A DNA stretch of 64,000 bases from Candidatus Phaeomarinobacter ectocarpi (GTDB taxonomy: Bacteria > Pseudomonadota > Alphaproteobacteria > CGMCC-115125): NCBI RefSeq assembly GCF_000689395.1, contig NZ_HG966617.1:1002753-1066752 (forward strand), in the 5' to 3' direction. Shown piece by piece: positions 38,435 to 56,849 of the stretch. The position numbers and the translations under genes are program-made. Positions within the stretch are counted from its first letter, which is position 1, and every line of letters begins with the position of its first letter. The notes below the pieces were generated by a model, which saw only the letters and a program-made list of their open reading frames with translations, made no database searches and was not told where the DNA came from.

Positions 38435-39904
38435 TTACCACCTCACTATGCAAAGACCGTCTGATCCATCGCCGCCATCGCGGACGCCGCTATGATTGCC
38501 TCCTGTTCCCGCACCGCCGAGTGCGGCATCGGAACCAACATTCATGTTTGGTACGCCCCCAAAACCCGGCGAGTGTCCAGGCGTCGCAGCACCAAGAGTT
38601 TGGCTCCAGACGATGCCGCCTGGCATGCCGTAGAGGTTTAGGTCTCCGCCGATGCCTTGGCCCGGTGCCGACCCCGCCGAAGCAGCCACAGACGCTTGAC
38701 CGGTTACGCCACCCTGACCCCCGGTAGCGGACAGATGTGCGCCGAAGGACGTCGTCCCTCCGGAATTACCGTTGGCTTGATTTGCGCCGCCCAGTCCCTT
38801 CGACCCTATTGTGACGGTCTCGGACACCGCCAAAGCCGAAACGGCAATTCTCCTGGTCGCGCGGCCGGCACCGGCACCGGGATAGCCGCGTGAGTTCTGA
38901 GCAGAGTTGCCACCTCCACCGCCTCCGGTTGCGCCCACTACATCGACTTCAATATGGGTGACCCATGGAGGCAGATCGGCCTTTTCGAAAGTGCCGGAGG
39001 CGGTATAGATCGACCTGTTCAACGACAGCTCGTCAAGTTCCAGCGCCGCGCGACCAACAGACGGTGTGACGTTTGACAGCTCGTCGTCTGCCTTGTCCGC
39101 AAGGGCCGCTAGATTGTCGGCGACACTCTGAACAGCTGCACTAACGCCAGCAACGGTTGTCACATCGGCATCTATGCCTGCAACAGTGTTGACGGCGGCT
39201 GTAATCGCGGCCAGCGCCTGGACCTCCGCGCTGTCGCCAGCAACAGTCGATACTCCGGCTTCGATCCCGGCAACAGTGTTTATGGCAGCTGTGATCGCCG
39301 CGAGCGCCTGGACCTCTGCGCTGTCGCCAGCAACGGTCGTCACATTCGCTTCGATGCCCGCAACAGTATTGATCGCTGCGGTGATGGCTGCCAGCGCCTG
39401 TACTTCTGTGGTATCCCCTGCAACGGTCGTCACATTCGCTTCGATGCCCGCAACAGTGTTTATGGCGGCCGTGATCGCTGCGAGCGCCTGGACCTCTGCG
39501 CTATCGCCCGCAACAGTGGTCACGTTGGCGTCTATGCCCGCAACGGTGTTTATGCTTGCTGTGATCGCCGCGAGCGCCTGGATCTCCGCGCTATCGCCAG
39601 CAACGGTCGTCACGTCGGCGTTGATGCCCGCAACAATGTTGATGGCCGCCGAGATTACAGCCACCGCAACAATAGCGTCCAGGTCCGCCAGCACTTGGAC
39701 AAACCCCGGATCGGCTAGTACCGCTTGCGCCGCTGCAGCCTGATCAGCTGCATCTTGTCCTACAATCCCAAGGTCAACCAATGCCGACGGGAAGTTGTCC
39801 CGATGCCCATCAGCACCCATGCCACCTGGATTGGTATCAGGGTTCACCGGGTTCGAATTGTAGTAACCATCCTTCAGACGGTCGATCGATTCCTGCACGG
39901 TCAT
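38435..39904 (-). CDS. Phage tail fibre/adhesin with 30-residue repeats and glycine-rich tip
   Basis: A 489-residue fibre protein. After an N-terminal attachment segment, residues ~85-260 form six near-identical 30-residue repeats (core: TVAGDSAEVQALAAITAAIN), expected to form a trimeric shaft of coiled coil or heptad type. The C-terminal ~170 residues are a Gly/Ala/Ser-rich domain (GGGGGNSAQNSRG, GSKGLGGANQANGNSGG) ending in DGLCIVRW, typical of polyglycine-helix receptor-binding tips. It should contact the host surface. It overlaps the upstream gene by 4 bases. Confidence 0.82.
   Translation of the reverse strand: MTVQESIDRLKDGYYNSNPVNPDTNPGGMGADGHRDNFPSALVDLGIVGQDAADQAAAAQAVLADPGFVQVLADLDAIVAVAVISAAINIVAGINADVTTVAGDSAEIQALAAITASINTVAGIDANVTTVAGDSAEVQALAAITAAINTVAGIEANVTTVAGDTTEVQALAAITAAINTVAGIEANVTTVAGDSAEVQALAAITAAINTVAGIEAGVSTVAGDSAEVQALAAITAAVNTVAGIDADVTTVAGVSAAVQSVADNLAALADKADDELSNVTPSVGRAALELDELSLNRSIYTASGTFEKADLPPWVTHIEVDVVGATGGGGGGNSAQNSRGYPGAGAGRATRRIAVSALAVSETVTIGSKGLGGANQANGNSGGTTSFGAHLSATGGQGGVTGQASVAASAGSAPGQGIGGDLNLYGMPGGIVWSQTLGAATPGHSPGFGGVPNMNVGSDAALGGAGTGGNHSGVRDGGDGSDGLCIVRW
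39148..39660 (-). repeat. Six tandem ~90-bp repeats in the tail-fibre gene
   Basis: GCAACGGT(C/T)GTCAC-type landmarks recur at about 39148, 39238, 39328, 39418, 39508 and 39598, a constant 90-base step. The copies differ mainly at third codon positions, so the repeats are old or under selection, yet remain similar enough for recombination to change fibre length. Confidence 0.88.
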
Positions 39905-40773: not shown

Positions 40774-42348
40774 CTACCCGAATACGCGCAAAGTCATGAG
40801 GGAACGCTCAGGCGCTGTCGGCCGGATCGCCATGAGGATCATGTCGGCATCGATGCCGGCGCGTGCGTCCGTGACGCGGATCTCGTTCCCAAGCTCCAGC
40901 TGCAACCGCTCGGCCGTCATTTCACACTGGATCAGGAAGGCTTCGCGCGGCGTGCCGTCCGCCCTTGGCCCAAATAGGCTTAGGACGTCCTGAGCAAGTG
41001 CCTGGGCATCATCGCCGTCGATCAGCGCCGTTGGCAGCTCAACGATGCGATAGTCCGGCCACAGAGCCTTGGTGGACGCATTTGGTGCGGTTGCCAGACG
41101 CCATTCGGAAGAGACAAAGGATTCGCGATCGGTGCCGAGCACGGCTGCCTGCATGTCAGCCCGGCGCATGACCGAGTAGTTGCGTGCGTAGAAAACAGTG
41201 ACCTCGCCAACCGGCGCACCGCCTTCGGACTGGTCAGGGGCAATGTCGATGATGTCATCATCCACAAGCGTCAGCACCGGCACGCCGGAAGGGGCACGCA
41301 CGGTAGCGACCTGCCAGGCGCCCGTTCGGTCCGGCAGTGCGAAGCCGCCGATCGACGACGCAAATGCATCAACCGCTTCAAGGCCCGTCACTTCGCTGTC
41401 GAGCCACAACCCCATCTTTTGCGGTGCCACCAGCGTGTCGAATGAAGCGCCGACCGAAGCGCCGGCAACGCCTTTCATGGACAGGACGCGCTTGATCAGC
41501 GGTCCAGCAGTGTCGTCGAAGCCCGCGCCGTGATCTGTGTCGTTTGCTCCCTTGAGGTCATACGTGACCGCATTCGCAAGCGCGCCTCCAAGCTTCACAA
41601 GGCCGCGTGTGCGGTCCTCTTCGTAGTCGGTGGCACCCAGCACCACGTTGTCGAAAACAGCCCCTGTAGAGGTCCCATTGAGTGTCAGGTTTGCGTCACC
41701 GCCACCGTTGTAGATCGCGGTGACGCCTTCGATGGACCCATCGTGCAGCTGGTCGACCAGGTCTTGAACATTGGCGGCCCGGCCGGGGATGTTTGCGCGG
41801 GTCAAATCACCCAGCGCCAGGGGCTTTGGAACGCCCTTCAAATCATCTTCTGTGCCTTCATAGCCAGAGCCGCCACCGTCATTTGTGCCGGCGTAAGTCA
41901 CCACCTGCAGATCCGTGTCCAGTTCAGCCCGCAGGTCAAAAACCGGCACTGCAAGCCGCCCAGGTGAAGAAGCGGACAATCGGAAGTCCGGTGCTCCGGC
42001 ACGACCGACCAGAAGCGGAACGAACTCGTCGAAGTCCTGACCCACCACGCCCCAATAAAGGCTCAACCGGCCCAACGCAAAGCCGCGCAGGTGGTTGAGA
42101 GCACCGTCCGCATTCGACAGCACCATCGCACCACCCGCGACCGTGCTAGTGAAGCCAGCCAGATCAAGCGACAGTTCACGGGCGATGTTTGCCGGGTCAA
42201 TCAGGCGAGGATCGTACGCCTGGCTTGGTCGATCTGCGTCCAGCGGTGAGAACGGCCGCATGGGCATATCTGAAAAGTAAAGCGTGGTTTGCGCATCAGT
42301 CGATACGTCGATGACGTCCAGCTCAGCGATGATGGCTTTCAGGCTCAT
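40774..42348 (-). CDS. Phage tail tip/hub protein
   Basis: A 524-residue protein directly after the tape measure gene, overlapping its end by 4 bases, so it is translated from the same message. The composition is beta-rich with many Asp/Gly turns (PVLTLVDDDIIDIAPDQSE) and no membrane segments. Position after the tape measure suggests a distal tail or hub component, as in other siphophage tails. No enzymatic motif was found. Confidence 0.7.
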   Translation of the reverse strand: MSLKAIIAELDVIDVSTDAQTTLYFSDMPMRPFSPLDADRPSQAYDPRLIDPANIARELSLDLAGFTSTVAGGAMVLSNADGALNHLRGFALGRLSLYWGVVGQDFDEFVPLLVGRAGAPDFRLSASSPGRLAVPVFDLRAELDTDLQVVTYAGTNDGGGSGYEGTEDDLKGVPKPLALGDLTRANIPGRAANVQDLVDQLHDGSIEGVTAIYNGGGDANLTLNGTSTGAVFDNVVLGATDYEEDRTRGLVKLGGALANAVTYDLKGANDTDHGAGFDDTAGPLIKRVLSMKGVAGASVGASFDTLVAPQKMGLWLDSEVTGLEAVDAFASSIGGFALPDRTGAWQVATVRAPSGVPVLTLVDDDIIDIAPDQSEGGAPVGEVTVFYARNYSVMRRADMQAAVLGTDRESFVSSEWRLATAPNASTKALWPDYRIVELPTALIDGDDAQALAQDVLSLFGPRADGTPREAFLIQCEMTAERLQLELGNEIRVTDARAGIDADMILMAIRPTAPERSLMTLRVFG

Positions 42349-45300
42349 GACAAACCGCCTGCGGCGCGGCGACCAGAGTTGCGGCGCAGGACCATATTGG
42401 TCTGCTCGTTCGCACGGCGCATGTCTTCGCGCGTCGCGTTGCCGGCTTCGATAGCGCCGATGGTGCCGTCGCCAGACGCAAGCACTGCACCTTCGAGGCG
42501 TTCAAGGCGGGCGGCGATGGCCTGCAGACCAGCATCGATGTTGCCACCTCCAGCCGATCCCAGTGTTCCGCCATTGACGGCGTCCAAAAACTGCGAGCCG
42601 TACTGCTCTACCGCTGCGGCGCGGATCACGTATTCACCATTGGAAAGGCGCGCAGGAATGCTGTCGCTGGTCGATGTGCCGGCACCCAGCACCATGCCGC
42701 CAGTCGAGAAACCTTGCAGGCCGTACTCTGCAAACCGTTCCGGATCGAGGCGCTGCGCCGCGCGTGCGGATGCGACGTATTCTGTACCGATGACACCAGA
42801 CAAGTATCGGTCCTCGCCACGGGCATTCTCATAGGCTGAAAGTGCCGTTTCGAGGCGCTCAAAAACCTTGTCAGCGGCGCGCTGCTTTGCTGCCTCTGCA
42901 GCTGCCGCCTCAGCGGCGGCCGCCTGGGCACGTGCGGCAGCGGCATCGGCTTCAGCTGCGGCAATGCGTCGATCGGCTTCCGCCTGGGCTTCAGCAATAC
43001 GGGCTTCAGACGCGATCTCGATGGCTGACAGACGTTCGGATGCCAGGCGCGCCGCCTCAGCTTCAATCGCAGATGCGTTGTCGCTTGACGTGAGCGACAC
43101 CAACTCGGCCAGGGCTGCATAAAGTGGTGTCGCCTCGCCGGTGAGGGCACTCAGCTCAGCGAGCTGGGCTTCCAGCAAAGTAGCATCCGGCGAATTCGAT
43201 TGAAGCGCCACCAGAATCTCCGACAGCAGGTCGAGCTGCTGTTCTAATACGTCAGCTTCAGTGTCGCTTGCATCTGCCTGGGCATCGGCAACCGCAGCTG
43301 CCTGCTCAAGCAGCGTAGACACAAAATCGAAGTCGGCCTGGAACAACTCGCTGTCTGCAAAGTAGGCGCGGCTGGCGTCGATGAATTGCCCTGCAACCTG
43401 CGGCAGGGCCTGCAGGGCCGACACGTTGCCGTTCTCGAAGGCGTCTGACGCGAGCGACTGCAGACGGTCGAACAGTTCCGTGCGCTGGTTTTGCGGCGAC
43501 AGGGGAGACGAAGAGCCGACGCGCAGGGCAAAGATGGCTTCCCGGCTCGAGACGGCAAAGCTGCGCAGGCTTTCGGCCAACTGGCGTGCCTCGGCAGCTG
43601 CAGACTGCGCGGCGCGGCCTTGCTCCTGGGCAAGCAACGACAGGGTGCTGCGGTTCGCACCGATCTGATAGGCGAGGTCGTCACTTAGCCCCAGCAGCTC
43701 GTTGAGGCGCTCGCGTTCGGCGTCTGCCAACTGCGCAACGAATGCCGATCGCTCCAGCAAATTGAGATGCTCAACAGCGGCAAGGTCAGCCTCCAGGAGA
43801 AGAGCGTCGCGCAGGCGCAGCTCCTGATTGTCCATGAGCTTTTCCCAGGCAGCGCGCAACGGGTCTGTGGCTGCCAGGATGCTGTCGAATGTGCTTTCGT
43901 CGAAGTCGTTGCGGAAGCTCTCGAGGGTCTTGGCTTCGAACTCATCAATGGCGTCGATCGCAAGGCCAACGGCAATGGCCCGGTCGCGCAGCGTGTCCAT
44001 TTCCTCGGTCAGGTTTTTAACTGCCAGCTCAGTCTGGGTCAGACCCTTCGTGCTGTCATCAAAGTTCAACGCCGCGAGGATCTGCTCAAGTTCGCGGATC
44101 TCGGTAATCTTCGTGATCAACTGCTCGACAGACCCGCCTTGCGCCAGCGCGCGGTTCACAGCGTCCGAGTCACTCTTGAGATTGGAAGCTGCGTTCTGGA
44201 AAAAGCGCTCAATGAATTCTTCAGCGGATTGCGCGCCAGAGACATTGCCCTGACCGATATGTTCTGCGCCTTGGTTGTTGATGACCTGCAGGCCGAGTTG
44301 ATCCGCAATCTGGTTGACGAACTGCGCCGCCTGGCTTGCGGCATTTTGCGTGACCGATCCATCGGCACCATTGTCAACGCCGGTCGACCCCACAGTCAGT
44401 CGTCCACCGGACACCCCGACATTCGTGTGGCCGATGGGATCACCACCGCCCTTGTTGCCAAACAGGCCTCCAATGAAATTGCCGAGCAATGCGCCCACAG
44501 CTGTGCCGACAAAAGGTATAGGAATGAAGCTGCCGGCTATGGCGCCAATGCTGCCACCGATATCAGCACCCGCGCCACGGTCGCCAAAGATCGCGTTGCC
44601 AAGGAAGTTGCCCGCAAAGCCGCCAGCAGCACCAGCAGGCGATCCCAGACGGCCAAGCGCCGACCCGAAGGTCGTCGGCGCGGCCGGCCCGATGCCACCG
44701 GCACCCAGAGACGACAGGCCAAGGCTCTGACCAGTGCTGCCGAAGATGAAATCGGACACACCCCCAAACGACTGTGTGAGGCCGCTGCCACCGCCGCTGA
44801 AGATATCGAAGATTGAAGACAGGCCACCGCCCGAACCGCCACCGCCACCGAAGCCCGCCTGGCCAAGGACCTGGCTGATACCAGAGTTCGACACACCAAG
44901 CACGCCGCCCAGCTCCTGAACGATGGGTACGATGATCGGCGTGGCGAGTGCCTGGAAGGCCAGCTCCGCGAGCATGTCGAGAAACAAATCCTCGAATGAT
45001 TTCATCAGCCCTTCAAAACCGCCTTCACCTTCCTTGAAAGCTGTTTTGAAGGCGTCCTTGAAGCCACGCTCGATCTCGCCTGTGAAGCGTCGCAGAAGCT
45101 CCTGGTTGGCGTCACGGGCGGCTTGTTCCTCTTTGAGGTCTTCCAGGCGGCCGACATGTGCGCGGGCCTCAGCGCGCGCCTGTGCCTCTGTCAGCTCGAG
45201 CCCTGCAGCCTTGGCGGCATTGAGCAAGTCACGGGTTACCAGCTCGACTTGCCGTTGCTCTTCGCTCAGCCCCGCCAGGCGCAGCTCCTCAGCCATGCCG

Positions 45301-47426
45301 TCCCGCAGGATGGCCAGCTGCTCGATGCGTCGGCCGGTCCGTTGTGCCAGGGCGGCTTCAAGATTGTTGAGCACCAGCTGGCGATCGTTGAGATCGTCGG
45401 TTGCATCCGCCCAAGCGCGCACAGCATTCGCCGGCTCGTTGCCCAGAGTGTCACGCAGGCGCTCTTCGAGTTCGACCAAGAGCAGATTGTATTCGGCCTG
45501 GTTGATGCTGTTGGTTGCAAGCGCCGCATCGAGTGCGGACAGCCCTTCACGGTAGGACGAGACGCCGGCACCGACCTTGTCCAACGATTCCAGAAGCGAC
45601 TGGGCGTCTTCATCCAGGCCTTTCAGAAGGGTGGTTGTGGTCGTCGACGTGCTGTCATTGGCGGCATTGGAAGCTGCTGCAACGCCAGCATCGATCTCGG
45701 CATACAAGGCAGCCAGCTCAAGCCGTGCTCCCTGCACACCATCGCGTGTGCGTTCCAGACGTGCCAGCGCCTGGCGCGGGTCATCGCCTGGTTCGAGCTG
45801 ATCGACTTTGATTTCGGCCACTGCAAGAGAAGACTCGCGCATGCGTACTGTGCGCTCTGCAATCGCCAGCGCTGCTTTTTGTTCGGCGGTTGCCAGACTT
45901 TCAAGTCGACCGCGCGCTGTTTCTAGCTCCTGGTTGTATTCGAACTGTGCCGAGCGTGCCGTCTCGGTCTCATCGGAGAGAAGGATGTACGCGCTAACCA
46001 ACAGGCCGGCCGCTGTGGCAACAGCTCCAACAGGATTGGCGGCAAGGAGTGCAAAGAAGCCGCCAGCGGCAACGTGTGCAGCACGGAAAGACAAAGCCAC
46101 ACTGCCAAGCCAACGCACCAACTGAAGCGCGATCAGGCCGCCGACGGCAGCTTCAACCAGGTGGATATTGTCCACCAGTAGGCCAGCCGCTTCCGAGACT
46201 AAGGCGAGCGCTTCGCCAAACACGAACCCCATTCGCTGTGACGACTCTGCCAAGTCATCAAAATTGCCGACAACACTTTCGATCGCCGGCGTCATCCCCC
46301 GGACAATTCCTTCACCAACACCTCGCTTAATCACGGCCATTGCCGCTTCGAACTGTCGAGACAGGTGACCCGAAGAGTCAGATACCTTTAAAACGGCTTT
46401 GTCAGCTTCTCCGGCAGAATTCTCAATGCTTCTCAGAATTTGAGCGAACGACTCGGACTGCGAACCTGCAAGGGCCATCGCTGGACCAATTGCCTCGACG
46501 CCCCCGAACAGCAGCGCAAGTTGTTCACTTGCGCCACCCGTCTTCTCGGCAACATCCTCTAGGAAACCAGCAAGGCCCTTTGACTTAAGAGCCGCCGCAT
46601 TGAACGAGAGGCCAAGCTCTGACGCCAGGTCGGTTGCTTCCTGGCTTGGTTTCAATATGGCTGCGAGGACAGCTCGCAACCCGTTGAATGACACGGAAGT
46701 GCTTAGACCGGTCTTGGTGAGTGCAGCTGTGCCAGCAAGCAACTCTGAAAGGGGTACGCCCAGCTGTGCTGCAGTGGTCGCGACATTGCCGATGGATGCG
46801 GATATCTCACCGATCGTGGTCTTGCCTTCACGCATGGTCGCAAAAAACATATCGCTAACCATTGATGCCTGTTCAGCACCAAGCTCGTAGGCATTCAGTG
46901 TAGACGTCAGGCCATCGGCTGCTGTGTCAACTTCAGTCAGACCTCCGACAGCCAGCTTGCTGGAGCTTTCCAGCACTGCACTGGCTTCTGCAGCGTCCTT
47001 AGCACCAGCGGACAGAATGGCGTAGGTCGCCTTGATCTGATTAATGGGCAATTGGCCGTACCGAACGGCGAGCCGGTCAACATCTTCTGCTAGCTGGGGG
47101 AGCACATTGGTGTCATCCAGCAAGGTAGAGACTTCAACCAGCCCATCGCCGAAACGAAGGAACTCTTGACGCGCGTCTCGGAACACCACTGCGATAGCGG
47201 CTGCGCCGATCAGTTGAAGAGCTGTCTTCAACCGCACCGCACCTTCTCGCGCCTCTTTGGACGCAGGACCGAACGCTTTGGTTTCCTGATTGAGTTTCTT
47301 CTGTTCAACAGTCGAGGACTTTGCCGCACGGCCGACACCATCGGATGCGTCCTCGAGCTGGTTCAAGACGCGGACGGATCCGTCATCCTGGACCTGAACC
47401 GTGAGAGAAATCACGCGATCAGTCAT
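42345..47426 (-). CDS. Phage tail tape measure protein
   Basis: A 1693-residue protein that sets tail length and is injected with the DNA. The TP901-type core lies in the first ~400 residues (VSTLLDDTNVLPQLAEDVDR; ISAGAKDAAEASAVLESS-like segments), followed by hydrophobic helices, long Ala/Glu coiled coils (about 1400-1560), and Gly-rich stretches around 900-1000. Its start overlaps the last chaperone stop (TGATG). At about 0.15 nm per residue the tail would be near 250 nm, long for a transposable phage; this estimate is inference. Confidence 0.92.
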   Translation of the reverse strand: MTDRVISLTVQVQDDGSVRVLNQLEDASDGVGRAAKSSTVEQKKLNQETKAFGPASKEAREGAVRLKTALQLIGAAAIAVVFRDARQEFLRFGDGLVEVSTLLDDTNVLPQLAEDVDRLAVRYGQLPINQIKATYAILSAGAKDAAEASAVLESSSKLAVGGLTEVDTAADGLTSTLNAYELGAEQASMVSDMFFATMREGKTTIGEISASIGNVATTAAQLGVPLSELLAGTAALTKTGLSTSVSFNGLRAVLAAILKPSQEATDLASELGLSFNAAALKSKGLAGFLEDVAEKTGGASEQLALLFGGVEAIGPAMALAGSQSESFAQILRSIENSAGEADKAVLKVSDSSGHLSRQFEAAMAVIKRGVGEGIVRGMTPAIESVVGNFDDLAESSQRMGFVFGEALALVSEAAGLLVDNIHLVEAAVGGLIALQLVRWLGSVALSFRAAHVAAGGFFALLAANPVGAVATAAGLLVSAYILLSDETETARSAQFEYNQELETARGRLESLATAEQKAALAIAERTVRMRESSLAVAEIKVDQLEPGDDPRQALARLERTRDGVQGARLELAALYAEIDAGVAAASNAANDSTSTTTTTLLKGLDEDAQSLLESLDKVGAGVSSYREGLSALDAALATNSINQAEYNLLLVELEERLRDTLGNEPANAVRAWADATDDLNDRQLVLNNLEAALAQRTGRRIEQLAILRDGMAEELRLAGLSEEQRQVELVTRDLLNAAKAAGLELTEAQARAEARAHVGRLEDLKEEQAARDANQELLRRFTGEIERGFKDAFKTAFKEGEGGFEGLMKSFEDLFLDMLAELAFQALATPIIVPIVQELGGVLGVSNSGISQVLGQAGFGGGGGSGGGLSSIFDIFSGGGSGLTQSFGGVSDFIFGSTGQSLGLSSLGAGGIGPAAPTTFGSALGRLGSPAGAAGGFAGNFLGNAIFGDRGAGADIGGSIGAIAGSFIPIPFVGTAVGALLGNFIGGLFGNKGGGDPIGHTNVGVSGGRLTVGSTGVDNGADGSVTQNAASQAAQFVNQIADQLGLQVINNQGAEHIGQGNVSGAQSAEEFIERFFQNAASNLKSDSDAVNRALAQGGSVEQLITKITEIRELEQILAALNFDDSTKGLTQTELAVKNLTEEMDTLRDRAIAVGLAIDAIDEFEAKTLESFRNDFDESTFDSILAATDPLRAAWEKLMDNQELRLRDALLLEADLAAVEHLNLLERSAFVAQLADAERERLNELLGLSDDLAYQIGANRSTLSLLAQEQGRAAQSAAAEARQLAESLRSFAVSSREAIFALRVGSSSPLSPQNQRTELFDRLQSLASDAFENGNVSALQALPQVAGQFIDASRAYFADSELFQADFDFVSTLLEQAAAVADAQADASDTEADVLEQQLDLLSEILVALQSNSPDATLLEAQLAELSALTGEATPLYAALAELVSLTSSDNASAIEAEAARLASERLSAIEIASEARIAEAQAEADRRIAAAEADAAAARAQAAAAEAAAAEAAKQRAADKVFERLETALSAYENARGEDRYLSGVIGTEYVASARAAQRLDPERFAEYGLQGFSTGGMVLGAGTSTSDSIPARLSNGEYVIRAAAVEQYGSQFLDAVNGGTLGSAGGGNIDAGLQAIAARLERLEGAVLASGDGTIGAIEAGNATREDMRRANEQTNMVLRRNSGRRAAGGLS

Positions 47427-47764
47427 CAGCGTGCGTCCTTTGCCCAGGCGTTGATGGCAGCAACTTCCATGACCCGGAGGTCAGAGAGCGTTGCGGCGTT
47501 CCATTCCACACCGAGCGCACGTGCCGCACTTTCCGCGCGCATGTAGTCGAGACCTGTGCGAACGATGACGACCTTTTTTGTGCCGGTGACCACGAGCTGG
47601 TCCCATTGCGTTTCGCACGCCGTGAAAACACGGAACGAACTGGCATTGTCTGCATCGACCTGGACAGGTGGCAGGCGGGTTTGAGAATTGCCTTCGACAT
47701 GCTTTGCGGCGTCTTCAGCTCCAGCGGCGCGAAGGGCACGGGCCACCTTCGCCGGGTTGGTCAT
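47426..47764 (-). CDS. Tail assembly chaperone, second frame (T part)
   Basis: A 112-residue open frame (DUF1799-like by position) just before the tape measure. Its own ATG has no ribosome site. The frame is continuous, with no stop, back to the slippery site at 47830-47836 in the preceding gene, so it is likely made mainly as the C-terminal part of a fusion (about 273 residues) by -1 frameshift. The T-type domain is expected to bind the tail tube protein while the G-part binds the tape measure. Confidence 0.72.
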   Translation of the reverse strand: MTNPAKVARALRAAGAEDAAKHVEGNSQTRLPPVQVDADNASSFRVFTACETQWDQLVVTGTKKVVIVRTGLDYMRAESAARALGVEWNAATLSDLRVMEVAAINAWAKDAR

Positions 47765-47826
47765 TCGCCGCGCACCTGTGCCCGCATCAGGGTGCCGCCC
47801 GGTTGCCCAGGCGTGCGCGACGTCTT

Positions 47827-48246
47827 TTAGTTTTTTGGTTTGCGCCCGTTGAGCGCATTGAAGTACTCGGCAACCACCGCTTCTCGCACGGCAAGGTCCT
47901 GCATCAGCCCGTCGCGGACGGCGTCAGAAAACTTGATCGGCACCTTCTCGCCTTCTTTGTTCTTCTGGACGAGGCCGTCGCAATCGACCCAGACTTCGTT
48001 CATCAGGCGCTTGTGACCGTCCTTGGCCACCATCGCAGCAAGCAACATGCTGTTAGCCATGGGGCCATCGTTGGCTTCTTCCTCAACGGCCATGACCTTG
48101 TTGAGCTCGTCTTCGGGTAGCAGTTTGAAATGAGCGTCAAAGCCCATTTGAACGATGTTGTTCTTGTCGGTTGTGTAGGTGAATTTCACCGTGCGTTTGA
48201 CAACGCGGTGCTGGCCTTTCGGCAGGACTTCAAATTCCAGAGACAT
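47827..48246 (-). CDS. Tail assembly chaperone (G part)
   Basis: A 139-residue protein in the slot between tail tube and tape measure. ATG 48246 starts MSLEFEVLPKGQHRVVKRTV; AAGGAT is upstream. It is rich in helix after residue 50 and would bind tape measure during assembly. The last codons read CCA AAA AAC then TAA, which forms the A AAA AAC slippery sequence. In siphophages the G protein and a frameshifted G-T fusion are both needed in a fixed ratio. Confidence 0.75.
   Translation of the reverse strand: MSLEFEVLPKGQHRVVKRTVKFTYTTDKNNIVQMGFDAHFKLLPEDELNKVMAVEEEANDGPMANSMLLAAMVAKDGHKRLMNEVWVDCDGLVQKNKEGEKVPIKFSDAVRDGLMQDLAVREAVVAEYFNALNGRKPKN
47830..47836 (-). other. A AAA AAC slippery site for -1 ribosomal frameshift
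   Basis: On the minus strand the 0-frame codons CCA AAA AAC TAA contain the heptamer A AAA AAC, immediately before the stop. Slipping back one base continues CTA AAA GAC GTC GCG and so on without a stop through the ATG of the downstream frame. This is the X XXY YYZ pattern used for tail chaperones. Confidence 0.82.
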
Positions 48247-48338: not shown

Positions 48339-49283
48339 TTACGTGAACGTGTATTTCACCTCATCGTCACCGCCGTCCGTCGCGGTGAGCTTGATGTCGA
48401 GCTGGTAGGTACGCTCGTTCTCGTGGGTGCCATGATTGACGTCCACGATCTGCACCTTGGGTGCATCGACTGTCAGGATGTTGCCTGCCGTCGTGCCATG
48501 CACGACCTGTAGTGCTGACTTGGTCTGAGCTGCCGCCAGGCCCTCCGGGTTGAAGGTAGACAGATCCTCCGGCATCAGCACTTCAAGGCGCCCTGCAAGG
48601 TTGCGCTTGCCGGCAATACGGACCGCTTCCTGATTGGGAAGATTGCGATAGCTGACATTGCCAGGCGCGTTGAATGTCATGTTGACCAGGACAAGGTCAG
48701 TCCCGCCAAGTGTCACCGTTGGCGTGTTGGCATCCTCGATCGGCAGCGGATCTGTGAAGTTTGAATAGTCGGCAGCGGCCGCGGGCGCCTGATCAGCGGG
48801 ACCCACATAGAGACCCATGCCGTTCAAAATGAAATACGGCATGTTGCCGGCCTGGAACTCAAAGCCCAGGGCGGCACGCCATCCCAGCAGCTTTCGCAGC
48901 TGCTCCTTGTAGTACGCGTACATGCTGACGCTGTCGAAGTCGTCCGAGACAGGCGCATAGGCAACGCTCGTATCAGCGACAATCGTCTCTGCGTAACCCG
49001 CCGCAAGCAGAATGTCGGCAAAGGCCGGCGCGACACCTTCGGTGCCTGAACCTGCGGCTTCCAGCTTGAAGGTGTTGGAATAGTGAATGCCGGACAGGAT
49101 GGACGGATCACCACCCATGCCGGGACGGTCCAGGTCTCGTGACACTTCCTGTCGATCCAGCGGGTTGAGCTGGAACGCGGAGGTGAGCATCGAGTTTGCG
49201 CCCGGTGCCGGCACAGAGTCCGTGCCGTAGGTGGTTTCCTTTGAGGCGATGATAAGAACGTCGTCTTCTGAAACACCGTCCAT
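48339..49283 (-). CDS. Phage tail tube (major tail) protein
   Basis: A 314-residue protein of mixed beta composition that heads the tail gene block and is followed by the chaperones and tape measure. Such a protein polymerises into the hollow tail. No sheath gene precedes it, so the tail is non-contractile, in contrast to Mu itself. The length is above average for a tube protein, and the insert around residues 230-270 could be surface exposed. ATG start confirmed at 49283. Confidence 0.8.
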   Translation of the reverse strand: MDGVSEDDVLIIASKETTYGTDSVPAPGANSMLTSAFQLNPLDRQEVSRDLDRPGMGGDPSILSGIHYSNTFKLEAAGSGTEGVAPAFADILLAAGYAETIVADTSVAYAPVSDDFDSVSMYAYYKEQLRKLLGWRAALGFEFQAGNMPYFILNGMGLYVGPADQAPAAAADYSNFTDPLPIEDANTPTVTLGGTDLVLVNMTFNAPGNVSYRNLPNQEAVRIAGKRNLAGRLEVLMPEDLSTFNPEGLAAAQTKSALQVVHGTTAGNILTVDAPKVQIVDVNHGTHENERTYQLDIKLTATDGGDDEVKYTFT

Positions 49284-50082: not shown

Positions 50083-50537
50083 CGCGCATCGCCCCCGGTG
50101 CCAAGCTCAGAGACGAAATCGGCAACGATCAGCTCGATCTCTTGCAGATCCGCGTCGTTGACACCCAGAAACGGGCGCGCGGGCATATCGACCGCGAGGC
50201 CGCGACCGGTCTTGCCGCCGTGTTGATGGATCGCGGCATATATGACGTTGCTGCCAACGGTCACAGCGTCAGGCGTGGTTTCGTAATTGATGGACGCCAG
50301 GAGGTGTCCCCGGTCGACCAGGGTTTTGCCGTTCTCATCGAGCGCCCGTTGGGATGGCAGCCAGGGCGTGCCATCAGGTGCCTCGCCGGTTTCAAAACGC
50401 TCCAACGTGCGGTCTTCGAGATAGCTGCCGATCTCGTCCATGGCCGGCGAGTAGTCAGACAGACGGGCGCGCGCTTCGCTGACCACATGGCGCAGCTCGC
50501 CGTCTTCAAATGTGAGGGTGATATCGACGCCGGCCAT
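50079..50537 (-). CDS. Phage virion morphogenesis protein (gpG-like)
   Basis: A 152-residue protein of the gpG family. Conserved landmarks are IGSYLEDRTLERFETGEAPDG followed by WLPSQRALDENGKTLVDRGHL and the C-terminal IHQHGGKTGR. These proteins act in virion assembly at the head-tail connector. Overlaps both neighbours (ATGA), so it belongs to the same operon as DUF1320 and gp37. Confidence 0.9.
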   Translation of the reverse strand: MAGVDITLTFEDGELRHVVSEARARLSDYSPAMDEIGSYLEDRTLERFETGEAPDGTPWLPSQRALDENGKTLVDRGHLLASINYETTPDAVTVGSNVIYAAIHQHGGKTGRGLAVDMPARPFLGVNDADLQEIELIVADFVSELGTGGDAR

Positions 50538-50962
50538 CAGTAGTCCGCCAGTGTGTCGGAGGAAAACACCTTGTCGCCGGCAACGATGCGCGGGCCACCG
50601 CCGGACGAAGGCGTCTCGCCTGGGTCGTCCTGGTCACCCAGCTGCGCGCGTCCGGCCGCAACGTCGCGCAGGAAAGCGACGGCATGGTCAAACGCTTTTT
50701 GAACGGCCTCGGTCGGGCCGTCCTGATACAGGTAGAAGCGTGCCAGATCGGACGCGGTGCGTTCCAGCACGTCGGGTGGATCGGTCAGCGGCAGGGTGTA
50801 ATGACCGGACAGATAGGAATTGATCTTCGCGTCCGCATCTTCGAGCGCGCGGTCAAGCACACTGTCGACGATGGCTTCAGCCGAGCCGTCGCGGTCCGTG
50901 AGCTGCTCCAGCTCTTCGGCTCCGAAGCGGTCGATCAGGTCCTGTTTGCTGGCGTAGGTCAC
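50537..50962 (-). CDS. Mu gp36-like protein (DUF1320), head-tail connector
   Basis: A 141-residue protein starting MTYASKQDLIDRFGAEELEQ, a standard DUF1320 opening, with the helix pair ALEDADAKINSYLSGHYTLPL. It is likely a head-completion/connector protein. The region between it and the gp35-like gene holds an initiator-type tRNA, so translation restarts here rather than by overlap. Confidence 0.9.
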   Translation of the reverse strand: MTYASKQDLIDRFGAEELEQLTDRDGSAEAIVDSVLDRALEDADAKINSYLSGHYTLPLTDPPDVLERTASDLARFYLYQDGPTEAVQKAFDHAVAFLRDVAAGRAQLGDQDDPGETPSSGGGPRIVAGDKVFSSDTLADY

Positions 50963-50976
50963 TGTTGTCCTTGATT

Positions 50977-51056
<80 letters not shown>

Positions 51057-51149: not shown

Positions 51150-51596
51150 TCAGTCTCCGGACTTCTTCTCCGCTTCGACCTCTGCCCAGAGCTTGTCGCG
51201 CTCGGCAGCTGTCAGCTTGAAATCGTCGCCAAGAACCTTGGCCAGGACGGGTGTCAGAACTTCCGTCTTGGGCTTGCCGGAGTTTGTGAAGTCGGCGGGC
51301 TTTGCGTCACGCATCGCCGTCTTGATCACGTCCTCGCGGGAAATGGTGGCGGCAGTGCCGGGGCCAGATTTTGAGGATGCTGACTGGGTGCCGCCACCAG
51401 CGCCGCCCTGTTTGGAAGCTTTCGACTCTTTGGTCTTTAGCTCCCCGCCAACCCATTCCGCATCGCCGCGAGCGGCCATACGGTCCAGGCTTGCAATGGC
51501 GTCGTGGTCGTCGTCATCGACCTCGACGAACTCGCCCGGCTGATAGCGTTCGCCATTCAGCCGGAGTTTGCTGTTGAGTGAGTAAGCGCGCCCCAT
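51150..51596 (-). CDS. Mu gp35-like phage protein
   Basis: A 148-residue protein after the capsid gene. N-terminal ~55 residues form a small compact domain (RLNGERYQPGEFVEVDDDDHD), then a Ser/Gly/Lys linker, then a charged helical region (DDFKLTAAERDKLWAEVEAE). It matches the slot and rough layout of Mu gp35-type proteins. Overlaps the capsid stop by 1 base. Function unknown. Confidence 0.72.
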   Translation of the reverse strand: MGRAYSLNSKLRLNGERYQPGEFVEVDDDDHDAIASLDRMAARGDAEWVGGELKTKESKASKQGGAGGGTQSASSKSGPGTAATISREDVIKTAMRDAKPADFTNSGKPKTEVLTPVLAKVLGDDFKLTAAERDKLWAEVEAEKKSGD

Positions 51597-55571: not shown

Positions 55572-56849
55572 CTACTGGCTTCGCCGATAGGCGAGGACAC
55601 CACGCCTGGACCGGTTGATGTTTTCCATCTTGTCGAGGGGATGCGCTGTCACACCGGACCACCCGTCCGGCCCAACGTCAAACACTGAAACAAAGCCGCG
55701 TGTCTCGCCTTCTTCCGTGCCGCGTAACAAATAGCGGCGACGCAATAACCAACGGCCTGTCGCCTTGTGCTCTTCCCAGTACCACCAAATCTCGTCCGGC
55801 TGCATGATAGTAAAGGCCAGGCGAGCGATATCAAATGCTCGATTGCGCTTGCCGATTTTCAGCGTGCCGTCTGCCTGAGTGAACAGGTCCGCAGATATCA
55901 CAACCGGCTCGCCGATCTTGTCCACGAAGACCACCGGCCGCTCGCGCGTCGCCCCAAAGGCAGTCAGAAAACTGGACAGCTTTTCTTCGTCCGATGTGCC
56001 TTCGGGAAATTCCAGGCGCGGCGGCAGCGGCCTCGGCGCAGGCATGTCCACATTCGCAGGCGCGTTGATGACTGCCGGTGTCGGCAGCGGACCCGTCTTT
56101 GGTGGTGGCGTCAAAGCTCGCATATGCGCGCGGCCGACATTGTAAGCAAAGCCGGGAGAGATGCCTTTGGGCAACCGCTGGGTCTGACCTGTGCGCCTGT
56201 TGCGATAGATCTTCGTGTCTTCAAGAAAGGCTTTGACTTCTGCTTCGGACGAGACCTCCAGTCCAAGCCGCTTCATGTCGCGGACTGAGAGCTGGCGCAC
56301 GATGCACCTGCACCGAAACCCATTGGGCGGATAGTGCGTATCCCAGAAAGGATGGTCCCAGGGCAGCAAGATACTGCGCCAGGCATAGTGCTCGTCGCGG
56401 GTCCGGTCATCGTCGACGATTACATATCGCAGATAGGGCCGCCGGGCTGCGTTGCGCTCGATGCGTTTCCAGCGACCTGCAGCGTGAGCCGTGCGAAGAT
56501 TGGTGTCATAGATGATATCGAGCCGCCGCGGACTGCCGAGCTGGACGTCTCGCACTTCGCCGGTCAACGGATCTGTTGCTGACTGCCGGCCCCACCATCC
56601 CTTGGCCTGTAGAACAGGCGTTAAATTTTCTTTGAACGTCGCGAGCGTTGTGCCCTCTCGCAGGGCCTTGTCCACTTCCTGGCGAATGTCCTGCAGGATG
56701 TCCAGGCGGGTGGCCTTGGCAACAGTGAACGCGCGGGCATGCTCTTGCTGCCAGACATCCCGCCAGTCAAAGCCGACCTTGTAGCCCTTGCTCTCAAAGT
56801 AGCGAACGGCGTCGGCCGGGGGACGTGCACTCAGCTCAACCTGTTCCAC
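55572..56849 (-). CDS. MuF-type head morphogenesis protein with C-terminal PBECR2-like domain
   Basis: A 425-residue minor capsid protein. The MuF core has DDDRTRDEHYAWRSILLPWD followed by HYPPNGFRCRCIVRQLS (residues ~150-200). After a Pro-rich linker, the last ~125 residues (FVDKIGEPVVISADLF; KRNRAFDIARLAFTIMQPDE; LRRRYLLRGTEEG) fit the PBECR2 group of barnase/RelE-like nucleases found on MuF proteins. MuF is packaged and injected, so a nuclease tail could reach the cell on infection. Reaction untested. Confidence 0.84.
   Translation of the reverse strand: MEQVELSARPPADAVRYFESKGYKVGFDWRDVWQQEHARAFTVAKATRLDILQDIRQEVDKALREGTTLATFKENLTPVLQAKGWWGRQSATDPLTGEVRDVQLGSPRRLDIIYDTNLRTAHAAGRWKRIERNAARRPYLRYVIVDDDRTRDEHYAWRSILLPWDHPFWDTHYPPNGFRCRCIVRQLSVRDMKRLGLEVSSEAEVKAFLEDTKIYRNRRTGQTQRLPKGISPGFAYNVGRAHMRALTPPPKTGPLPTPAVINAPANVDMPAPRPLPPRLEFPEGTSDEEKLSSFLTAFGATRERPVVFVDKIGEPVVISADLFTQADGTLKIGKRNRAFDIARLAFTIMQPDEIWWYWEEHKATGRWLLRRRYLLRGTEEGETRGFVSVFDVGPDGWSGVTAHPLDKMENINRSRRGVLAYRRSQ

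Follow-up and report, generated by a model that had tools for sequence, protein, structure and literature searches.

A conserved frameshift in phage tail genes is a finding with which Xu et al. 2004 are reportedly credited in papers that cite them. In lambda (G/GT), D3 and P2 (E/E+E'), the chaperone gene lies between the major tail or tail tube gene and the tape measure gene, and a -1 shift close to its end adds a second domain to the product. The lambda arrangement is described in PMC5009743 (papers given here by PMC number are cited from excerpts), and the D3 shift, which is not annotated in its record, was read by us from the sequence. The HK97 record also annotates a -1 shift, and we found no heptamer of the form XXXYYYZ in the last 50 codons of that gene. 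The transposable Pseudomonas phages PaMx73 and D3112 combine a Mu-like head with a siphophage tail, and a -1 shift was proposed in the tail assembly genes of PaMx73 (PMC4378225). The record of Rhodobacter phage RcapMu (NC_016165) marks a "potential -1 frameshift" at the junction of the corresponding genes, and that of Serratia phage Smarc2 gives a joined "pre-tape measure frameshift protein." Here, we analyzed a junction of this kind in a 64,000-nucleotide (nt) stretch of Candidatus Phaeomarinobacter ectocarpi (contig NZ_HG966617.1, positions 1,002,753 to 1,066,752; hereafter the window), where a putative tail chaperone gene, G, ends in a slippery heptamer directly abutted by its stop codon, and a second gene, T, continues the -1 frame. 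The features of the junction, in window coordinates, are as follows.

47827..48246, minus strand: gene G, putative N-terminal part of the tail assembly chaperone, 139 residues; open reading frame (ORF) ending CCA AAA AAC TAA
47830..47836, minus strand: slippery heptamer A AAA AAC in the G frame; read from the sequence, with a heptamer in 50 of 51 DUF1799 loci
47827..47829, minus strand: G stop TAA, abutting the heptamer ("intercodon" position); read from the sequence, with the adjacency found in relatives
47765..47830, minus strand: -1-frame bridge without a stop, 22 codons, LKDVAHAW...; its K2 and L3 are invariant in relatives, and its first part is predicted to form a helix of the T domain
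47426..47764, minus strand: gene T from its own ATG, 112 residues, a DUF1799 protein (PF08809, PHROG 680) and the -1-frame extension of G
47426..48246, minus strand: predicted G-T frameshift fusion, 273 residues; translation and frame check
47766..47822, minus strand: predicted stem-loop 7 nt 3' of the heptamer, with an outer 10-bp stem pairing 47822-47813 with 47775-47766; from folding
47773..47777, minus strand: AGGTG, possible ribosome site of T, partly within the 3' arm of the stem; from folding and the computed duplex with the anti-Shine-Dalgarno sequence

We consider it very probable (about 0.93) that G ends in a programmed -1 ribosomal frameshift by which a minority of ribosomes would fuse it to T. 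The minus strand reads ...GGG CGC AAA CCA AAA AAC TAA AAG ACG... at the end of G, and no stop interrupts the -1 frame between the heptamer and the end of T (47429-47836, minus strand, 136 residues). This frame runs through the 22 bridge codons, from CTA to CGA, into the ATG of T at 47764, which would give a fusion of 139 + 134 = 273 residues. The first-pass annotation of this DNA, made from the sequence alone, had placed the heptamer, the stop-free bridge and a product of about this length correctly. T matches PF08809 (E 2.2e-6, 28.3 bits against a curated cut-off of 26) and PHROG 680 (E 2.3e-13). Phage_TAC_4 (PF08748) was detected in 4 of the 10 G proteins of relatives that were scanned, three of them over the cut-off.

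Relatives were collected by way of the neighbouring and downstream proteins. With G alone, tblastn found no relatives in a phage collection of 50,697 records or in viral contigs, and over 191 genomes it matched only the window's own genome. The tail tube protein encoded upstream of G matched 19 phage records, representing 13 distinct phages, all of which were taken in, and one viral contig. This IMG/VR contig (L019) is the closest relative by tube protein (48% identity); its junction reads GAA AAA AAC TAA AAG, and its bridge is KKLKDAARLWAGG, compared with KKLKDVAHAWATG in the window. A search for DUF1799 was positive for 15 of 289 genomes from the class to which the window belongs and for 30 of 398 from its phylum, the phylum search giving 39 places, 30 of them with a locus that was used (29 new ones and the window). 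Altogether, 51 DUF1799 loci, including the window and six phages picked from 221 phage records, and 14 tube-derived loci gave 65 G-T loci, or 58 after removal of seven near-copies (L014, L018, L021, L026, L040, L059 and L067). The sample consists of genomes from the same class and phylum as the window, together with phages whose hosts are related; these phages include one of Microcystis and three of Synechococcus. Loci from whole genomes were covered as stretches of about 3 kb, the start of G was guessed where a locus was unannotated, and the DUF1799 core was set by a simple motif rule that is doubtful in L025. Structure at control places was compared in 57 loci (L065 left out), synonymous resampling was applied to 55 (L032, L061 and L065 left out), and start codons and stop expectations were counted in 56 (L032 and L061 left out). 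In the public records of phages P24, S-LBS1, Envy and SECphi18 (L025, L028, L066 and L067), T is started past the bridge, shortened or omitted, and the fused product is therefore missing from their annotations.

The first-pass annotation had proposed to look in related prophages for the heptamer and the stop-free bridge, and both proved to be conserved. In all 51 DUF1799 loci, an upstream ORF ends in -1 relation inside the open frame of T; a heptamer stands in the G frame ahead of the stop in 50 of them and directly at the stop in 45. Across the whole set, the heptamer abuts the G stop in 57 of 65 loci, or 50 of the 58 non-redundant ones. Of the remaining eight, seven have the heptamer 3, 6, 9, 9, 18, 20 or 35 codons from the stop, the 20-codon case (phage yong1, L032) and the 35-codon case (L061, under the Pfam cut-off) being doubtful loci, and L065 has no canonical heptamer. 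The motif is A AAA AAC in 44 of the 58, G GGA AAC in 10, and A AAA AAT, A AAA AAG and T TTT TTC (yong1) in one each. This placement at the stop exceeds chance: the window, L069 and 54 related loci together contain 1093 stop-to-stop ORFs of at least 100 codons, and XXXYYYZ with Y being A or T touched the stop in 51 of these, of which 50 were the ends of G genes and one was an unrelated ORF in L015. The open frame alone would be weak evidence, because in these GC-rich genomes an ORF of at least 60 codons also ends in +1 relation within the open frame of T in 17 of 51 loci; none of these +1 ends has a heptamer at its stop.

The bridge, too, is conserved as a -1-frame protein. Downstream of the slip, the majority sequence is [K/G]KLxxAARxW, and among the 50 loci with an adjacent stop A6 occurs in 38, A7 in 35, R8 in 31 and W10 in 25. 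In 34 aligned bridge and T proteins, no column is invariant other than K2, L3 and W78, and K2 and L3 are invariant among 38 as well. These two residues are partly dictated by the heptamer and the stop; residues 6 to 10 are not. Over codons 5-14, mean nucleotide entropy rises with codon position in the -1 frame (1.25, 1.45 and 1.65 for positions 1, 2 and 3). An AlphaFold2 model of bridge and T, based on 38 sequences, had a mean predicted local distance difference test score (pLDDT) of 88.6, with residues 2-12 in a helix and a mean of 92 over residues 1-10. A less confident linker, holding the ATG of T (residue 25), follows the helix, so that T begun at its own ATG would, according to the model, lack the bridge helix. 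The model of G had a mean pLDDT of 87.0. Sequence searches of solved structures gave nothing convincing, and NCBIfam gave no match over its cut-off.

We also observed that the RNA downstream of the heptamer is more strongly structured than codon choice explains, that is, the stem is under selection. In the window, the stem-loop with its inner hairpins has a folding free energy of -34.0 kcal/mol (z -2.48, with 1 of 200 shuffles equally stable); this stretch, which starts 5 nt past the heptamer, was picked after a first fold of a wider stretch that was not significant (z -0.78). In the family-wide tests, a single fixed stretch was used for every locus. For the 60 nt from 5 nt past the heptamer, mean z in 57 loci was -1.59, compared with -0.22 and -0.29 at two control places. 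The mean free energy of these 60 nt was -25.4, compared with -20.45 after synonymous resampling (standard deviation of the mean 0.59), and 46 of 55 loci lay below their own resampled mean. A control stretch 150 nt further on showed a smaller excess (-18.66 vs -17.62, standard deviation 0.33; 31 of 55 loci). Averaged over the loci, pairing defines a 5' arm spanning +7 to +18 and a 3' arm that begins near +28; the stretch also pairs at its ends, as ends do. Taken with the heptamer and bridge of the relatives, this stem supports the annotation's proposal of a lambda-like programmed -1 frameshift.

Upstream of the heptamer, there is a hint of an internal Shine-Dalgarno stimulator of the dnaX type. 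Computed anti-Shine-Dalgarno pairing had a family mean of -4.04 in 55 loci, compared with -3.66 after resampling, which is borderline (P 0.057), and GGG made up 13 of 36 glycine codons just upstream of the heptamer, compared with 44 of 273 elsewhere in G (Fisher p 0.0099). The element reaches -10.3 kcal/mol in RcapMu, compared with -2.5 in the window. In RcapMu (L024), it is an AGGAGG-like sequence roughly 7-15 nt 5' of the heptamer and is reminiscent of dnaX-type stimulation.

According to the mechanism that we propose, most ribosomes would read G to its TAA and release the 139-residue protein. The stem-loop starting 7 nt downstream would hold a minority of ribosomes while two tRNAs re-pair on A AAA AAC one base back, evading the stop, and these ribosomes would then pass through the bridge into T to make the 273-residue fusion. 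By analogy with lambda, the tape measure protein would be coated by G, and the few fusion molecules would use their T part to recruit the tail tube subunit, after which tail polymerisation would start. The first-pass annotation had called A AAA AAC ideal, which is a eukaryotic rule. Both A AAA AAC and G GGA AAC slip with low efficiency in E. coli, where the most proficient heptamer is X XXA AAG (PMC4066793), so the description did not hold and the yield of fusion may be small, a point that counts against the proposal. Low efficiency nevertheless suits a system that needs few fusions. In lambda, the molar ratio is 30:1 (PMC5009743), and for two genes of an HK97-like chaperone cluster reporters gave 6% and 7% (PMC3711429).

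Several other observations weigh against a programmed frameshift. The window G had no Pfam match of its own and no direct family match beyond a weak one to PHROG 569 (E 9.2e-5), one DUF1799 locus (L065) and a distant phage of the tube set (yong1) lack a convincing heptamer, and neither AlphaFold2 model matched a solved structure at E <= 0.001 in a fold search. The +1-relation ORF ends mentioned above belong here as well. T also has its own ATG and a plausible ribosome site in the window, for which reason the fusion need not be the only source of T. The first-pass annotation had denied T such a site, but CACAGGTGC lies upstream of its ATG, and the AGGTG 8 nt 5' of the ATG has a computed anti-Shine-Dalgarno duplex of -6.1 kcal/mol, the values for G and the tail tube gene being -4.8 and -6.5, respectively. 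T might then be translated from 47764, either alone or in a manner coupled to the termination of G, and frameshifting would contribute little or nothing; 23 of 56 loci do have an ATG or GTG with a site of -4.5 or better ahead of the DUF1799 core. We regard this as improbable, since the segment before the ATG is conserved as a -1-frame protein with a confidently predicted helix, which an independent start would leave out. In addition, the GTG of AGGTG lies within the predicted stem, and between heptamer and DUF1799 core 25 of 56 loci have no ATG and 10 have no ATG, GTG or TTG, so that in these 10 T seems reachable only through a shift. Slippage of RNA polymerase on the A run, rather than of the ribosome, could be imagined from the six A residues of the window and the seven of many relatives; it is still less probable, because 10 of the 58 loci share the position and the bridge but have G GGA AAC there, which offers no long homopolymer, and the downstream stem fits a ribosomal stimulator. 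Prophages often decay, and the recovery of G from 1 of 191 genomes, the window's own, might suggest a formerly single gene broken by an indel. However, the same break at the same codon is conserved in records of isolated or induced phages (RcapMu, RcWaterboi, Smarc2 and phiES15), and the neighbouring tail genes are open, which makes decay very unlikely indeed, the least credible of these explanations.

The stop abutting the heptamer is a conserved feature of the family and the least expected part of the arrangement, and it could be part of the mechanism. Since the stop directly follows the heptamer, part of the slippage may be post-translocation. The heptamer would then occupy the E and P sites, the stop would be in the A site, and slipping would face competition from release factor; this step is more tentative than the rest of our proposal. 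The frameshift could also be real while the adjacent stop has no role in slipping and was retained through common ancestry or because this is where G has to end, which is compatible with a programmed shift and rivals only the post-translocation step. We lean slightly towards the stop having no such role. All loci are homologous, several lineages have later stops (3, 6, 9, 9 and 18 codons) with the bridge kept, and a stop at the intercodon position lowered slippage in bacterial work (PMC4373837). The distances nonetheless cluster tightly at 0 instead of scattering over the few codons that follow, and adjacency was seen in 50 of 56 loci where 6.9 of 56 were expected from local codon use, given the conserved leucine, an expectation that ignores shared descent. 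Adjacency is also kept while the heptamer alternates between A AAA AAC and G GGA AAC: on a tree of bridge and T the G GGA AAC label needs five changes, of which only one is forced by well-supported branches; resolution of this tree is poor, with 29 of its 53 inner branches left open and an unsettled bootstrap. Among the members seen, only L052 has the E. coli-efficient A AAA AAG, and its stop comes 6 codons later, much as in lambda and D3; this is the direction expected if an adjacent stop compensates for poor heptamers, in what is a single case.

The genes around the junction indicate the kind of prophage. On the minus strand their order is tube, G, T and tape measure, so that the two frames lie between the following genes.

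48339..49283, minus strand: tail tube protein, upstream neighbour (PF18906, E 8e-12)
42345..47426, minus strand: tape measure protein, downstream neighbour, overlapping T by one base (PF10145, E 1.1e-26)

The head genes are of the Mu type (Portal_Mu, E 1.8e-110; Phage_Mu_F, E 5.2e-18), and a Mu transposase C-terminal domain (PF09299) lies on the same strand about 7 kb past the window end (G000:C1:1073655-1073849, minus), in a 715-residue ORF adjoined by a candidate ATPase ORF that is so labelled by position and translation. These findings bear out the first-pass description of a transposable phage with a Mu-type head, and transposable siphophage, as read from the genes, is a fair description of the prophage. 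In the head-tail operon of the phage, ARAGORN predicted a tRNA-Met (anticodon CAT; 50979-51056, minus strand) between the head-tail adaptor gene (50537-50962) and an ORF at 51150; no tRNA gene of this kind was found in 14 related loci (L019-L032), within the tail region and some head genes that these cover. The Mu gpF-like head protein (55572-56849, minus strand) carries at its C terminus (residues 294-422) a PBECR2 nuclease-like domain (PF18810, E 1.7e-23), possibly a toxin domain. In the translation of an ORF at 38435-39904 (minus strand), units resembling NTVAGI-NVTTVAGD recur, which probably represent the repeat region of a tail fibre.

Frameshifting in tail chaperone genes is already known, and the window locus adds one more well-supported case. 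The trait is not universal, as no such frameshift is reported in the excerpt on transposable phage KS10 (PMC2628397) and no clear one in that on RcZahn (PMC8601537). RcapMu genes 49/50 share with the window a Mu-like phage, the order tube, G, T (DUF1799) and tape measure, and a heptamer touching the stop, and differ in the heptamer (G GGA AAC instead of A AAA AAC), the stop (TGA instead of TAA) and the strong AGGAGG-like element. Lambda, D3 and P2 differ from the window in having G GGA AAG or T TTT TTG, 5, 6 and 6 codons before the stop, respectively. PaMx73 and D3112 have T TTT TTC 43 (PMC4378225) and 42 codons before it, respectively, and in the phages used to train PRFect the heptamer-stop distance has a mean of 26 nt (PMC10274946). 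IS1 insA-insB' also shifts -1 on A AAA AAC (PMC12428005), in a transposase rather than a tail protein; we considered IS1 as a precedent for the adjacent stop and ruled it out, since the insA stop of K-12 IS1A lies 5 codons past the heptamer. We found no description of a conserved adjacent stop in the literature searched, which did not cover Xu 2004/2013 or Fogg 2011 (RcapMu), and this silence is weak evidence of novelty.

A stop directly 3' of the heptamer is described for Rous sarcoma virus and barley yellow dwarf virus (PMC4373837), which are eukaryotic viruses, the likeness being taken from that description. It is conceivable, though we think it rather unlikely, that phages of the DUF1799 type form a distinct bacterial class of -1 frameshift, in which a poor heptamer would be made productive by a stop in the A site and a downstream stem-loop, the tRNAs slipping in the E and P sites during the wait for release factor; our caution stems from the fact that an A-site stop is possible before slippage but need not help. 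If such a class did exist, the G to G-T ratio, and hence tail assembly, would depend on the level or activity of release factor, and these junctions would parallel, in natural bacterial sequences, the slippage after translocation described for artificial-stop constructs (PMC4373837). With an adjacent stop after an inefficient heptamer, the family offers a large natural bacterial set in which pre- and post-translocation slippage, and its tuning by release factor, can be compared.

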